DNA from: a virus
Virus record (IMG/VR): IMGVR_UViG_3300042295_000443
Location: 25,162-89,161 of that record
Reading direction: 5' to 3' (one strand)
DNA length: 64,000 nt
Shown piece after piece: positions 18,709-25,189 of this stretch. Below the pieces are notes generated by a model. That model was not told the DNA's origin and made no database searches. It saw only the letters and a program-made list of their open reading frames with translations. The stretch's first letter is position 1. Each line of letters begins with the position of its first letter. The translations under genes and the position numbers were made by a program.

Positions 18709-18975
18709 ATGAGCAATGTTAAAGGATTCTTAATCAGTGTAAGTGACACTGTAAAAACAAACACTAATGGAACTGAATTCAGATCTTGCATAGTAGCCAT
18801 TGAGGGTGAAAACTATTTTGCAAAAATCTGGGAGAAATCTGTTTCCAAAGCTGTTGTTGGCAATGAGTACACTGTTGAAATGATTGTTGATGGTGAAAAC
18901 TTATGGTTAACATTGTTAACTGGTGTTACTGCAACTATTGCAACACCTAATATGCTTGCACACCTACTTAAATAA
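18709..18975 (+). CDS. Small OB-fold-like protein, paralogue of the 19806 gene
   Basis: This 88-residue protein is about 60% identical by eye to the product of 19806-20081, including RSCIV, GENYFAK, EKS, LWLT and the ATIATP motif. The alternation of beta strands (KGFLISVSD, EFRSCIVAI, NYFAKIWEK, EYTVEMIVD, ENLWLTLLTGV) suggests a five-stranded OB-like barrel, the fold of small single-stranded nucleic-acid-binding proteins. Both genes stand behind a leader element and before a hairpin, so the whole unit was duplicated. Binding to RNA or DNA is a guess. Confidence 0.65.
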   Translation: MSNVKGFLISVSDTVKTNTNGTEFRSCIVAIEGENYFAKIWEKSVSKAVVGNEYTVEMIVDGENLWLTLLTGVTATIATPNMLAHLLK

Positions 18976-19805: not shown

Positions 19806-20081
19806 ATGGAGAAAATGTTAAGAGGTACTCTTATCAGTTTTTCTAATGAGGCAAAAGCCAATGTGAATGGTACTCAGTACCGTTCTTGCATTGTCAATAT
19901 TGGAGGTGAAAATTACTTTGCAAAGCTTTGGGAGAAATCCTTGGCTAAGGCAGTAATTGGAACTGAGTACAATATTGAGGCTGTAGTAGATGGTGATAAC
20001 TTGTGGTTAACGTGCCTTACGGGCGTTAGTGCAACTATTGCTACTCCTGCTACATTCGCTGCTTTGTTAGCAGAATTGTAG
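19806..20081 (+). CDS. Small OB-fold-like protein, paralogue of the 18709 gene
   Basis: This 91-residue protein aligns along its whole length with the 88-residue product of 18709-18975, with shared LISFS, RSCIVNI, GENYFAK, LWEKS, EYNIE, DNLWLT and ATIATP. The predicted five-stranded barrel is kept, and differences fall mostly in loops and the C terminus. Retention of two diverged copies in a phage suggests different binding targets or timing. It is followed by a GAAA-capped terminator related to the one at 19618. Confidence 0.65.
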   Translation: MEKMLRGTLISFSNEAKANVNGTQYRSCIVNIGGENYFAKLWEKSLAKAVIGTEYNIEAVVDGDNLWLTCLTGVSATIATPATFAALLAEL

Positions 20082-20680: not shown

Positions 20681-20977
20681 ATGAAAGATTTCATTCACAC
20701 AGGTTGGTGGGGACCTACATTAACTACCACTGAAGATCCTGAATTAAAAGTTATTGAAAGAGATAATGGTCATTCTTGGACTATGAACTTTTATGTTGGT
20801 CATCATTTAATTGATTGCATAAATATGGAATGGTGCCGTGGTACTAAACTAGACAAAGATGTTCTTAGACTTCCTGTGTATAGTGATGAAGGTATCTACT
20901 TAGGTAGTCTTGCTAAAAGATTAGAAGATGCAATTAATGTTATGCATCCAGAACCTATGTTTCATACAGGGGAGTAA
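20681..20977 (+). CDS. Hypothetical protein, 98 residues
   Basis: The product has several Trp and His residues in the first half (TGWWGPTLTTTED, NGHSWTMNFYVGHHLID) and a helical C-terminal half (LAKRLEDAINVMHPE). The compact mixed composition suggests a stable fold. Its stop TAA lies in the GUAA loop of the terminator at 20968-20986. No family is recognised. Confidence 0.55.
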   Translation: MKDFIHTGWWGPTLTTTEDPELKVIERDNGHSWTMNFYVGHHLIDCINMEWCRGTKLDKDVLRLPVYSDEGIYLGSLAKRLEDAINVMHPEPMFHTGE

Positions 20978-20986
20978 TCCCCTTTT
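20968..20986 (+). terminator. Intrinsic terminator with GUAA tetraloop; stop codon in the loop
   Basis: Stem AGGGGA/TCCCCT (20968-20973 with 20978-20983) and loop GUAA hold the TAA stop of the 98-residue gene, followed by UUUUA. It is the same hairpin as at 19284. The large structured RNA starts about ten bases later. Confidence 0.78.
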
Positions 20987-20995
20987 ATTTAGTAT

Positions 20996-22074
20996 TGTTG
21001 CCTTTTCTTTAACCAGGCAAGTATCCAGTAAGTTGCTGGCGTGGGACTGTCCAGTATAGTTACAAGACAGTAGGGTTTGGTCTATTTCCCTTAAAGACCA
21101 TTAAGTACACAATGTTGTTACCCTCAGAGTTTAGATACTCATGGTGTGTGCGTTAAACCTATTATAACGGTTACTAAAACAACAGGTCAGCTCTCGTGAC
21201 CAAAGGATAAACCAGTAATGGTATAAAGTGATATGTTGGTAACATATTGCGCAGGAGTAATCCTGTCTACAGAAGAGTATTGTAACTACCTACATTTTGG
21301 TGTGCTTGTGGCCTAACGGTTGATGCATAGAGATGTAGACTTTCTAACAGGTAGGAAGTTGAGACAGAAATGTCAATAGAAAGTGCAATAGGTAACAATA
21401 GTACATCTCGCCAAGATGGAAGTTGTTATTAGTGAGATGTTCTTTATGCTACTAGAAATAGTGTGTATTTACATCAAACAGTGAGTAAGCTTGGCCGCTT
21501 AAAGCAATGTGAAGTTATAACTAAGGTACTCAAAAGGTATTATGTTATATAAAGTTGGAACTACTTCACATTATTTCCTGAACCGCATTTAAACTAAAAA
21601 CTTAAAAGCAAAGAATGTTCTAGCACTTATTAGTGAAAATGCTCTTATCCTACTGCAATATGTAGGTACAGAAGACCCGCAAGGTTTATGTAAAGGGACT
21701 GATTAATATCTTAACTAGCAGTAGACATACTGTGTATCCCGTAAGGAAGTTGGTATGAAAGGAAACTTATTGCACTAATATGTAAAAGTATGATGATACT
21801 ATAAATCATTGAGCATGTTGTTTACTTATAGAAATATAAGTGTGTATGAGGAGAAGAAATTTTCCAAAAATAGCAACATGAAAGGTCAATACTCATCCTT
21901 TCAATAGTAATGCACCATTTCTACTTCACAAGGGTAGACAGTTGTAATGTATGAACGCAACACTACTAGATTTTATCACTAGAAAGATGTTACATAGGGT
22001 TTTAATTAAAGAAGACTGATAATCTTTTTTATAACCTGCCGGAAACTTACATTATAACTGAGTGCAGAGTGATA
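20996..22074 (+). ncRNA. Large structured non-coding RNA (about 1.1 kb)
   Basis: No frame of 60 codons exists on either strand, yet the sequence is dense in helices. Clear pairs: 20998-21003/21015-21020, 21046-21051/21066-21071, 21078-21083/21095-21100, 21105-21111/21145-21151, 21185-21189/21197-21201, 21231-21237/21241-21247, 21506-21515/21563-21572 (10 bp perfect), and a three-way junction closed by 21814-21820/21874-21880 with two GAAA-capped arms (21824-21841, 21850-21865). GNRA loops on the plus strand: 21215, 21257, 21367, 21455, 21831, 21856. On the minus strand these would be UUAC or UUUC, so the RNA is read from the plus strand. It resembles in scale the GOLLD and ROOL classes of phage RNAs, but I cannot assign it to a class. 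Confidence 0.72.
21905..22074 (+). repeat. 3' domain of the large RNA, repeat copy 1
   Basis: It starts TAGTAATGCACCA, then a hairpin TCTAC/GTAGA (21920-21924 with 21934-21938) with loop TTCACAAGG, then a 13-bp helix (21939-21951 with 22048-22060), and ends GAGTGCAGAG with GATA. The same order and loop recur at 22291-22414 with compensatory changes in both helices. Confidence 0.72.
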
Positions 22075-22103
22075 TTAAATAGTAACCAACTAAACTATAA
22101 TAT

Positions 22104-22256
22104 ATGATTTTTCAATTGATTGCTCAAATTATTAAAGATGCTGATAAAGTATCAAACAAGAAATTAGATAAAGCTGCTTATGCAGATTATCTCAATACTC
22201 TTTCTCTAGATGATCTACTATTCCTTAAGGATAGTTATAGTTCAGAGTTAGTATAG
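22104..22256 (+). CDS. Small helical protein (50 residues)
   Basis: This 50-codon ORF (ATG 22104, TAG 22254-22256) has normal phage codon use and A-rich start context. The product is two helices, hydrophobic at the start (IFQLIAQIIKDADKV) and acidic later (LSLDDLLFLKDSYSSELV). It lies between the two copies of the repeated RNA domain, an unusual place for a gene. A 9-bp hairpin follows. Confidence 0.6.
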   Translation: MIFQLIAQIIKDADKVSNKKLDKAAYADYLNTLSLDDLLFLKDSYSSELV

Positions 22257-22290: not shown

Positions 22291-22525
22291 TAGTAATACA
22301 CCACTTCTCATTCCCAAGGTGAGACAGTTGTAATAGTAAGAGAGCAGGTTGCTTAGTCACACCTGCGGTAAATAATACTAAATCTTACACATTACAACTG
22401 AGTACAGAGGGATAACAAGGGTCATAACCTTGGGGCATAACTAAGAGCTAGTAAGAAGACATAGAGTTCATTTTATTATGAAAGATACAACTCTTATTAG
22501 AACAACTCTTAGTTAATGCTTTATA
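22291..22525 (+). ncRNA. Second structured RNA: repeat copy 2 plus a long hairpin
   Basis: It repeats the 3' domain of the large RNA: TAGTAATACACCA, hairpin TCTCA/TGAGA (22306-22310 with 22320-22324) with loop TTCCCAAGG, helix CAGTTGTAAT/ATTACAACTG (22325-22334 with 22391-22400) extended by GTAAGA/TCTTAC (22336-22341 with 22383-22388), and an inner 6-bp hairpin (22344-22349 with 22361-22366). Then comes CAAGG/CCTTG and a 13-bp helix (22435-22447 with 22506-22519, one bulge). The last helix ends 14 bases before the ATG of the S10-like gene, so this may double as its leader. Confidence 0.68.
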
Positions 22526-22532
22526 AATATGT

Positions 22533-22772
22533 ATGAAATATATACAATTTATAATTGAAAGTAATTCTAATAAGAAATTAGATGCTTTCACTAAAGAATG
22601 TATTAATGCCATCAGAAGATCTGGTGCTGTTAAAGCTGGTCCAATACCTTTTAAAGGTAAAAGATTATTTTATTGTTACAGTCCTAATGGAAAGACTATT
22701 GATAGACTTATGTCATTAAAATGTCCTAAAGGTGTGTTAGTAACAATAAATTCTTTGGAAAATCCTCAATAA
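22533..22772 (+). CDS. S10/NusE-like protein lacking the ribosome-binding loop
   Basis: This 79-residue protein lines up with ribosomal protein uS10. KKLDAFTKECINAIRRSGA (residues 14-32) matches the first helix, GPIP (36-39) is the invariant S10 turn, and KTIDRLMSLKCPKGVLVTI (54-72) matches KTVDALMRL...GVDVQI. The 20-odd residues that form the long ribosome-anchoring loop of S10 are replaced by a short GKRLFYCYSPNG turn. In E. coli, S10 is also NusE, a partner of NusB and RNA polymerase in antitermination, and the loop is dispensable for that role. A transcription role rather than a ribosomal one is therefore inferred. No stop hairpin follows. Confidence 0.65.
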   Translation: MKYIQFIIESNSNKKLDAFTKECINAIRRSGAVKAGPIPFKGKRLFYCYSPNGKTIDRLMSLKCPKGVLVTINSLENPQ

Positions 22773-22844
22773 AAGGGGTTAGTTAAAGCTGAAATAACTA
22801 CAAAGCTTTGTTTTTAACTTAAAATTAAACTTAAAAATATACTT

Positions 22845-25156: not shown

Positions 25157-25189
25157 TATATTCTGAGAATATGCTTTTCCAAAATAACA

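Follow-up and report, generated by a model that had tools for sequence, protein, structure and literature searches.

A phage S10/NusE-like protein without the ribosome-binding loop, encoded behind a covarying leader RNA and near a GOLLD-type RNA

The window, as the whole stretch of DNA analysed here is called, comprises 64,000 nucleotides (positions 25,162 to 89,161) of the virus record IMGVR_UViG_3300042295_000443 from IMG/VR. It contains a clean open reading frame (ORF) of 79 codons, with an ATG start and a TAA stop, that encodes a small basic homologue of ribosomal protein S10 (NusE) lacking the long ribosome-binding loop. The gene stands at the end of a gap that holds a structured leader, RNA-A, two copies of a second structured motif, RNA-B, and a giant RNA of GOLLD type (Table 1). 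The owner of the S10-like gene is a distant crAss-like phage; its PHROGs matches include a portal, a terminase, a family B-type DNA polymerase and a helicase-primase, and the terminase is 24% identical to that of Flavobacterium phage Fpv20, with further matches in Cellulophaga and Bacteroides phages.

The ORF encodes a true S10 homologue. By direct hmmscan it matched Ribosomal_S10 (PF00338) at E 1.5e-5 and 25.6 bits, above the gathering score of 21.2, and the NCBIfam S10 model (TIGR01049) matched at E 1.5e-8, yet under the equivalog cut-off of that model. The single phage sequence found S10 chains in the PDB at 3.8e-8, and a profile built from four phage relatives reached PDB S10 at 3e-12, the top two being 9i5v and 7jil, which we take to be Bacteroidota ribosomes. 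An earlier note on this DNA had placed the S10-like motifs GPIP at residues 36-39 and KTIDRLMSLKCPKGVLVTI at residues 54-72, and both are found there. Identity to S10 is only about 30%, and no PHROGs family was found for the protein. A six-frame PF00338 search of the whole genome gave no match for this ORF, though direct hmmscan does, which means that the six-frame route has false negatives.

The alignment to S10 falls into two halves, with phage residues 7-42 opposite S10 residues 7-42 and phage residues 43-74 opposite S10 residues 69-100. Since it breaks exactly at the long ribosome-binding loop, about 26 loop residues are absent. The claim that a short turn takes the place of this loop was therefore borne out, and the turn has the same short length in each of the seven distinct homologues. 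An AlphaFold2 model made on the seven-sequence alignment (predicted local distance difference test score, pLDDT, 86.9) has the order strand-helix-strand-strand-helix-strand. Its best VIA-align match was the loop-deleted NusE of the NusB-NusE-boxA crystal (3r2c_K; Z 14.6, 0.9 Å over 75 residues), virtually tied with 2kvq (NusE:NusG-CTD, the C-terminal domain of NusG; Z 14.5); 3d3b (NusB-S10) scored Z 13.9, and ribosomal S10s came close behind. Foldseek matched the S10 fold at 2.3e-7. Even the diverged protein P0008, modelled from two sequences only (pLDDT 69.5), had NusE 3r2c as its top Foldseek match (E 2.9e-4). The profile searches and the predicted structure that the earlier note had called for thus both returned S10, and loop-deleted NusE was one of the closest structural matches. 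Since the model overlays the 3r2c NusE, the phage protein is a natural equivalent of the loop-deleted NusE made in the laboratory.

Scans of IMG/VR gave homologues in four contigs (L001, L002, L003 and L004). A search with RNA-A added L031 and L008/L037, which a widened protein profile then recovered as well. The window and six other environmental phages together provide seven distinct proteins, all without the loop and all basic (pI 9.5-10.3), whose conservation goes down to 33-58% identity and which have in common the motifs F-x-x-x-S/G-x-x-x-K-x-L and G-P-[IV]-x-x-K-x-x-R. PF00338 matches all four members of the family alignment A2; the two most diverged proteins have no Pfam S10 match but align to other members at E 2.4e-11. 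Among cultured phages no loop-less S10 was found, nor any relative beyond weak matches. The phage-database matches (E 4e-4 at most) were set aside, as the best of them span 95 codons like full-length S10, come from unannotated records and are probably contamination by bacterial S10. The GTDB species genomes likewise yielded no loop-less S10, their sole match being an ordinary Tissierellia S10 of 95 codons.

The 110 nucleotides (nt) ahead of the start codon are kept in all relatives, and within them lies RNA-A, about 105 nt long, with its 3' end about 10 nt upstream of the start codon. In comparison with shuffled sequences, folding was favoured with z-scores of -4.3 to -6.8 in four of the first five sequences, and of only -1.4 in L002. 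The structure was derived with RNAalifold and then a covariance model, R1. The closing bases of stem P2 differ in every phage. In the seven-sequence alignment, which was fitted to this structure and so favours it, 95.1% of cells are paired and both partners have changed in 21 of 29 pairs; none of 500 shuffles reached any of these measures, and sliding the partners as a control lowered pairing to 29-52%. A plain MAFFT alignment of five sequences already contained double changes at 15 of 34 pairs. Two other identities for RNA-A were discarded: that of a group I intron core, prompted by AAGAUAUAGU-like letters, received no support from Rfam, and the CUCUU of the leader resembles boxA but is base-paired and is not conserved in L003, L031 and L037.

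The S10-like gene is obligately linked to this covarying leader. When the seven whole records were searched with R1, each contained exactly one RNA-A, always directly before the S10-like gene. In an independent test of the link, an 18-base pattern taken from the RNA-A hairpin alone found 58 stretches in IMG/VR, and those fitting R1 with at least 30 bits (L041, L023, L055, L051, L008, L037 and L031) all have an S10-like gene right after them. The contigs led by RNA-A include S10 relatives that Pfam does not recognise.

Further upstream, the GOLLD-type RNA of the window was matched at E 5.9e-25 in the whole-record search. A second is found in phage G005, directly ahead of the module and ending about 90 nt before RNA-A. 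Both matches (88.0 bits in the window; 76.7 bits, E 6.6e-22, in G005) are full-length and fall below the RF02032 gathering score of 150, which is why we write GOLLD-type. The two RNAs are 56% identical, and the S10-like protein of G005 is among the most diverged. In the window, the 5' domain of GOLLD probably extends, in divergent form, into 20978-21506. GOLLD went undetected in the remaining five records with an S10-like gene, so that two of seven are positive, and in all 36 records chosen for RNA-B, a search whose control gave no match anywhere; the difference between the two sets has a Fisher p of 0.023. A general link of GOLLD to RNA-B was discarded on the same 36 records. The stretch between GOLLD and the S10-like gene showed no Bacteroidota-type promoter, and for this reason the two may share a transcript; the observation is compatible with read-through from upstream. 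The gap includes an ORF of 50 amino acids, and an alternative genetic code masking genes in it was rejected, as reading through TAG or TGA gave no convincing long frames.

RNA-B, which in the window lies between GOLLD and RNA-A, is a structured motif with a CCCAAGG-loop hairpin, a stem CAGUUGUAAU/AUUACAACUG and the sequence GAGURCAGAGGG, present also in L081-L159 and L008/L037. It occurs in at least 120 IMG/VR contigs, most of them without the S10-like gene; its hairpin covaries, and no matching family was found in Rfam. In phages without the S10-like gene, a hairpin CAAGGGUUGCAACCUUG with UGAGAGUAC after it was observed 200-300 nt before RNA-B; it resembles the hairpin that opens RNA-A and is a shared RNA module.

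A possible H-type pseudoknot follows the S10-like stop codon and is seen in five of the seven phages, with both stems present in the window, L003, L031 and L037 in differing sequences and a related version in L004. Programmed frameshifting at this element was dismissed, as the position of the stop codon relative to the pseudoknot is inconsistent. Elsewhere in the window, a small hairpin-rich repeat (AGCCTTCGGCAG...ACAGCTT..ACT.CT.TGGA) lies in six copies between small early genes and was seen in none of the related loci that were inspected. The early region also encodes two paralogous small proteins 1.1 kb apart, their DNA 71% identical over 196 nt. Among the phage contigs, a transfer-messenger RNA (tmRNA) gene, a Hatchet ribozyme and a near-threshold Pistol ribozyme were observed, the last upstream of RNA-A in the phage of L001.

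Table 1. Positions of the features described, in window coordinates unless a contig is named
Feature	Location	Strand	Details
Terminator-like hairpin	20968-20984		At the 5' edge of the gap
Gap without ORFs of at least 55 amino acids	20978-22532	+	1555 bp; no gap of this kind in the window is larger; contains GOLLD, RNA-B and RNA-A
GOLLD-type giant RNA (RF02032, conserved 3' domain)	21507-21899	+	Full model (1-416) matched by cmscan under an E-value threshold at 88 bits, E 1.5e-22
RNA-B copy 1	21905-22075	+	Hairpin CUAC..GUAG, stem CAGUUGUAAU/AUUAUAACUG, UGAGUGCAGAG; repeat families D6, D14
ORF within the gap	22104-22256		50 amino acids
RNA-B copy 2	22291-22414	+	Abuts RNA-A
RNA-A, leader of the S10-like gene	22415-22522	+	Hairpin CAAGG[RUCRYAA]CCUUG, long stem P2, P3, internal loop, P4; covariation, z -5.6
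Loop-less S10/NusE-like coding sequence	22533-22772	+	79 amino acids, pI 9.8; Pfam, PDB, AlphaFold2 model, homologues in 6 other phages
Possible H-type pseudoknot	22780-22808	+	Just past the S10-like stop codon
Hairpin-rich repeat, six copies	18464, 18632, 19021, 19511, 19716, 20289		Between small early genes
Paralogous small protein 1	18709-18975		88 amino acids
Paralogous small protein 2	19806-20081		91 amino acids
GOLLD-type RNA of phage G005	C1:9461-9855	-	
RNA-A-like hairpin, L115	8057		
RNA-A-like hairpin, L108	6780		
RNA-A-like hairpin, L143	11763		
RNA-A-like hairpin, L136	13259		
RNA-A-like hairpin, L128	444		
RNA-A-like hairpin, L107			
tmRNA gene, L004	9927-10410	+	83.6 bits, gathering score 47
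Hatchet ribozyme, L107	46-208	+	81 bits, gathering score 51
Pistol ribozyme, L227	402-467	+	31.5 bits, gathering score 34.5

In E. coli, the long loop anchors S10 in the 30S subunit. By analogy with that work, a loop-less protein should not be held in the subunit, and since no member retains the anchoring loop, action off the ribosome is common to the leading readings: the S10-like protein probably works in transcription or as a partner of RNA. We tentatively favour a NusE-like role in transcription, in which RNA-A would serve as a nut-like site or for feedback. Environmental phages of one crAss-like lineage have acquired an S10 of Bacteroidota type and trimmed it to the globular, NusE-competent domain. 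We infer that this phage factor would bind RNA-A as the leader emerges from RNA polymerase and, together with host NusB and/or the NusG-CTD and the polymerase, would let the polymerase read processively across the structured non-coding RNAs and on into the downstream genes. RNA-A would then be a nut-like or autoregulatory site ahead of the factor's own gene, an arrangement like that of lambda nutL and N.

The match to the fold of minimal NusE, the absence of the loop in all seven members, the covarying leader and the basic character of the proteins argue for this NusE-like role. The site of E. coli NusE for RNA polymerase and the NusG-CTD comprises helices 1 and 2 together with strands 1 and 4, on the other face of the protein from the one turned toward NusB or the ribosome (PMC4642336), and the T-I-D-R-L-M stretch (TIDRLM..K) in the helix 2/strand 4 region is largely kept in the phage family. 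Several observations weigh in the other direction. The S10 segment that contacts NusB is represented by the inhibitor peptide YDHRLLDQS (PMC12652419); in most of the phages this segment, D-H-R-x-[LI]-D in S10, reads SNSNKxLD, conserved among five, so that K, L and mostly D are retained and H is replaced by N (interface residues as given in PMC12652419). Since this contact segment is altered, binding to NusB is uncertain and that side may have another partner. BoxA-like sites number 23 in the window where 23 are expected (allowing one mismatch, and the host boxA may differ), and the CUCUU of the leader is not conserved in diverged members. With a single RNA-A per record, regulation in cis is a better fit than a nut system acting across the genome. 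Neither NusB nor NusG was found in the phages; the host could supply both, and this negative is weak because the same search route missed the S10-like gene itself. The earlier note had described a protein of S10/NusE type that lacks the ribosome-binding loop, which both profile and fold uphold, and had gone on to propose a dedicated NusE. That further step is plausible, but boxA sites at chance level, an altered NusB-contact motif and the failure to find phage NusB or NusG lend it no support. The strongest clue to function comes from the obligate structured leader and the GOLLD RNA nearby, neither of which figured in the note's interpretation, and it leaves room for a role as RNA partner or autoregulator.

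The same leader also lends itself to the main rival explanation, in which the S10 fold serves as an RNA-binding domain unrelated to antitermination and the protein binds RNA-A and perhaps also the GOLLD/RNA-B block. It would either repress its own translation by way of the leader or belong to a ribonucleoprotein with the giant RNA. RNA-A is single-copy, obligate and ends just ahead of the start codon, the proteins are basic, and GOLLD lies directly ahead of the gene in two phages whose S10-like proteins differ greatly and in none of the 36 RNA-B records (the Fisher p given above). There are also precedents, as the OLE RNA has been proposed to sequester bS21 and GOLLD pulls down ribosomes (PMC12286853). 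Set against this, GOLLD is present in just two of the seven records and there under the Rfam gathering score; the missing loop is a major rRNA contact of S10, and binding to RNA-A or GOLLD is a prediction. We regard an RNA partner of this kind as possible though rather doubtful. Its more specific form, in which a giant phage RNA system has the loop-less S10 for its protein partner and this protein binds RNA-A together with the adjoining GOLLD-type RNA in a phage ribonucleoprotein, is unlikely; if true, it would provide the first protein genetically tied to GOLLD.

Alternatively, the protein might act as a decoy that takes the place of host S10 on NusB and/or the NusG-CTD and so shuts down rRNA antitermination or the coupling of transcription to translation while the phage takes over the host. 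Its resemblance to the minimal NusE that binds NusB, the NusG-CTD and RNA polymerase in vitro, and the fact that it cannot easily enter ribosomes, would suit such a role. However, the obligate structured leader would be left unexplained and the NusB-contact motif is altered, so we consider a decoy quite improbable. Substitution for S10 in the 30S subunit despite the loss of the loop, in the manner of phage bS21 and bL12, would give a specialised ribosome; the globular fold is intact in the model, but the anchoring loop is absent in seven of seven members, as would fit selection for a role away from the ribosome, and we give this explanation very little weight. That the protein is a chance resemblance or a decaying captured gene without function, as its small size and low identity to S10 might suggest, is scarcely credible and already contradicted by its conservation across the seven phages, all of which have kept the leader and lack the loop.

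Phage ribosomal proteins and NusE are each already known. The open-access papers searched yielded no natural loop-less S10, no covarying leader of this kind and no such position behind GOLLD, and earlier notice elsewhere is possible. Phage ribosomal proteins such as bS21 and bL12 are likewise ribosomal protein homologues in phage, and those tested enter ribosomes, whereas the phage S10 has lost its anchoring loop; the main text of that study makes no mention of S10 (PMC6375957). The likeness to GOLLD (RF02032) consists of full-length model matches just upstream of the module in two phages, and the difference is that these lie below the gathering score; S10 is also unmentioned in the GOLLD paper (PMC12286853). 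The place behind GOLLD makes the protein a first concrete candidate for the class of giant RNA nanocages. Lambda N and nutL offer by analogy a structured RNA site directly ahead of the gene for a small basic protein of transcription type, although N is unrelated to S10 and a conserved boxA was not found in the phage module.

The closest comparisons are with S10 itself. The phage protein agrees with uS10/NusE (PF00338, TIGR01049) in profile, fold, the b-a-b-b-a-b order, GPIP and the C-terminal T-[IV]-D-x-[LI]-M, and differs in lacking the ribosome-binding loop, in reading S-N-[ST]-N-K for D-H-R, and in being encoded behind its own structured leader instead of in a ribosomal protein operon. The roles of S10 in the ribosome and as NusE have been separated in the laboratory by deletion of the loop. 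The backbone of the engineered loop-deleted NusE (3d3b, 3imq, 2kvq and 3r2c) is nearly identical to the phage model (0.9-1.0 Å over 75 residues), the difference being that the phage version is natural, with putative binding to NusB, boxA or the NusG-CTD. In phage, evolution seems to have removed the same part, and this provides a minimal natural system in which the work of S10 outside the ribosome could be tested directly, with the obligate leader RNA-A as a ready RNA ligand.
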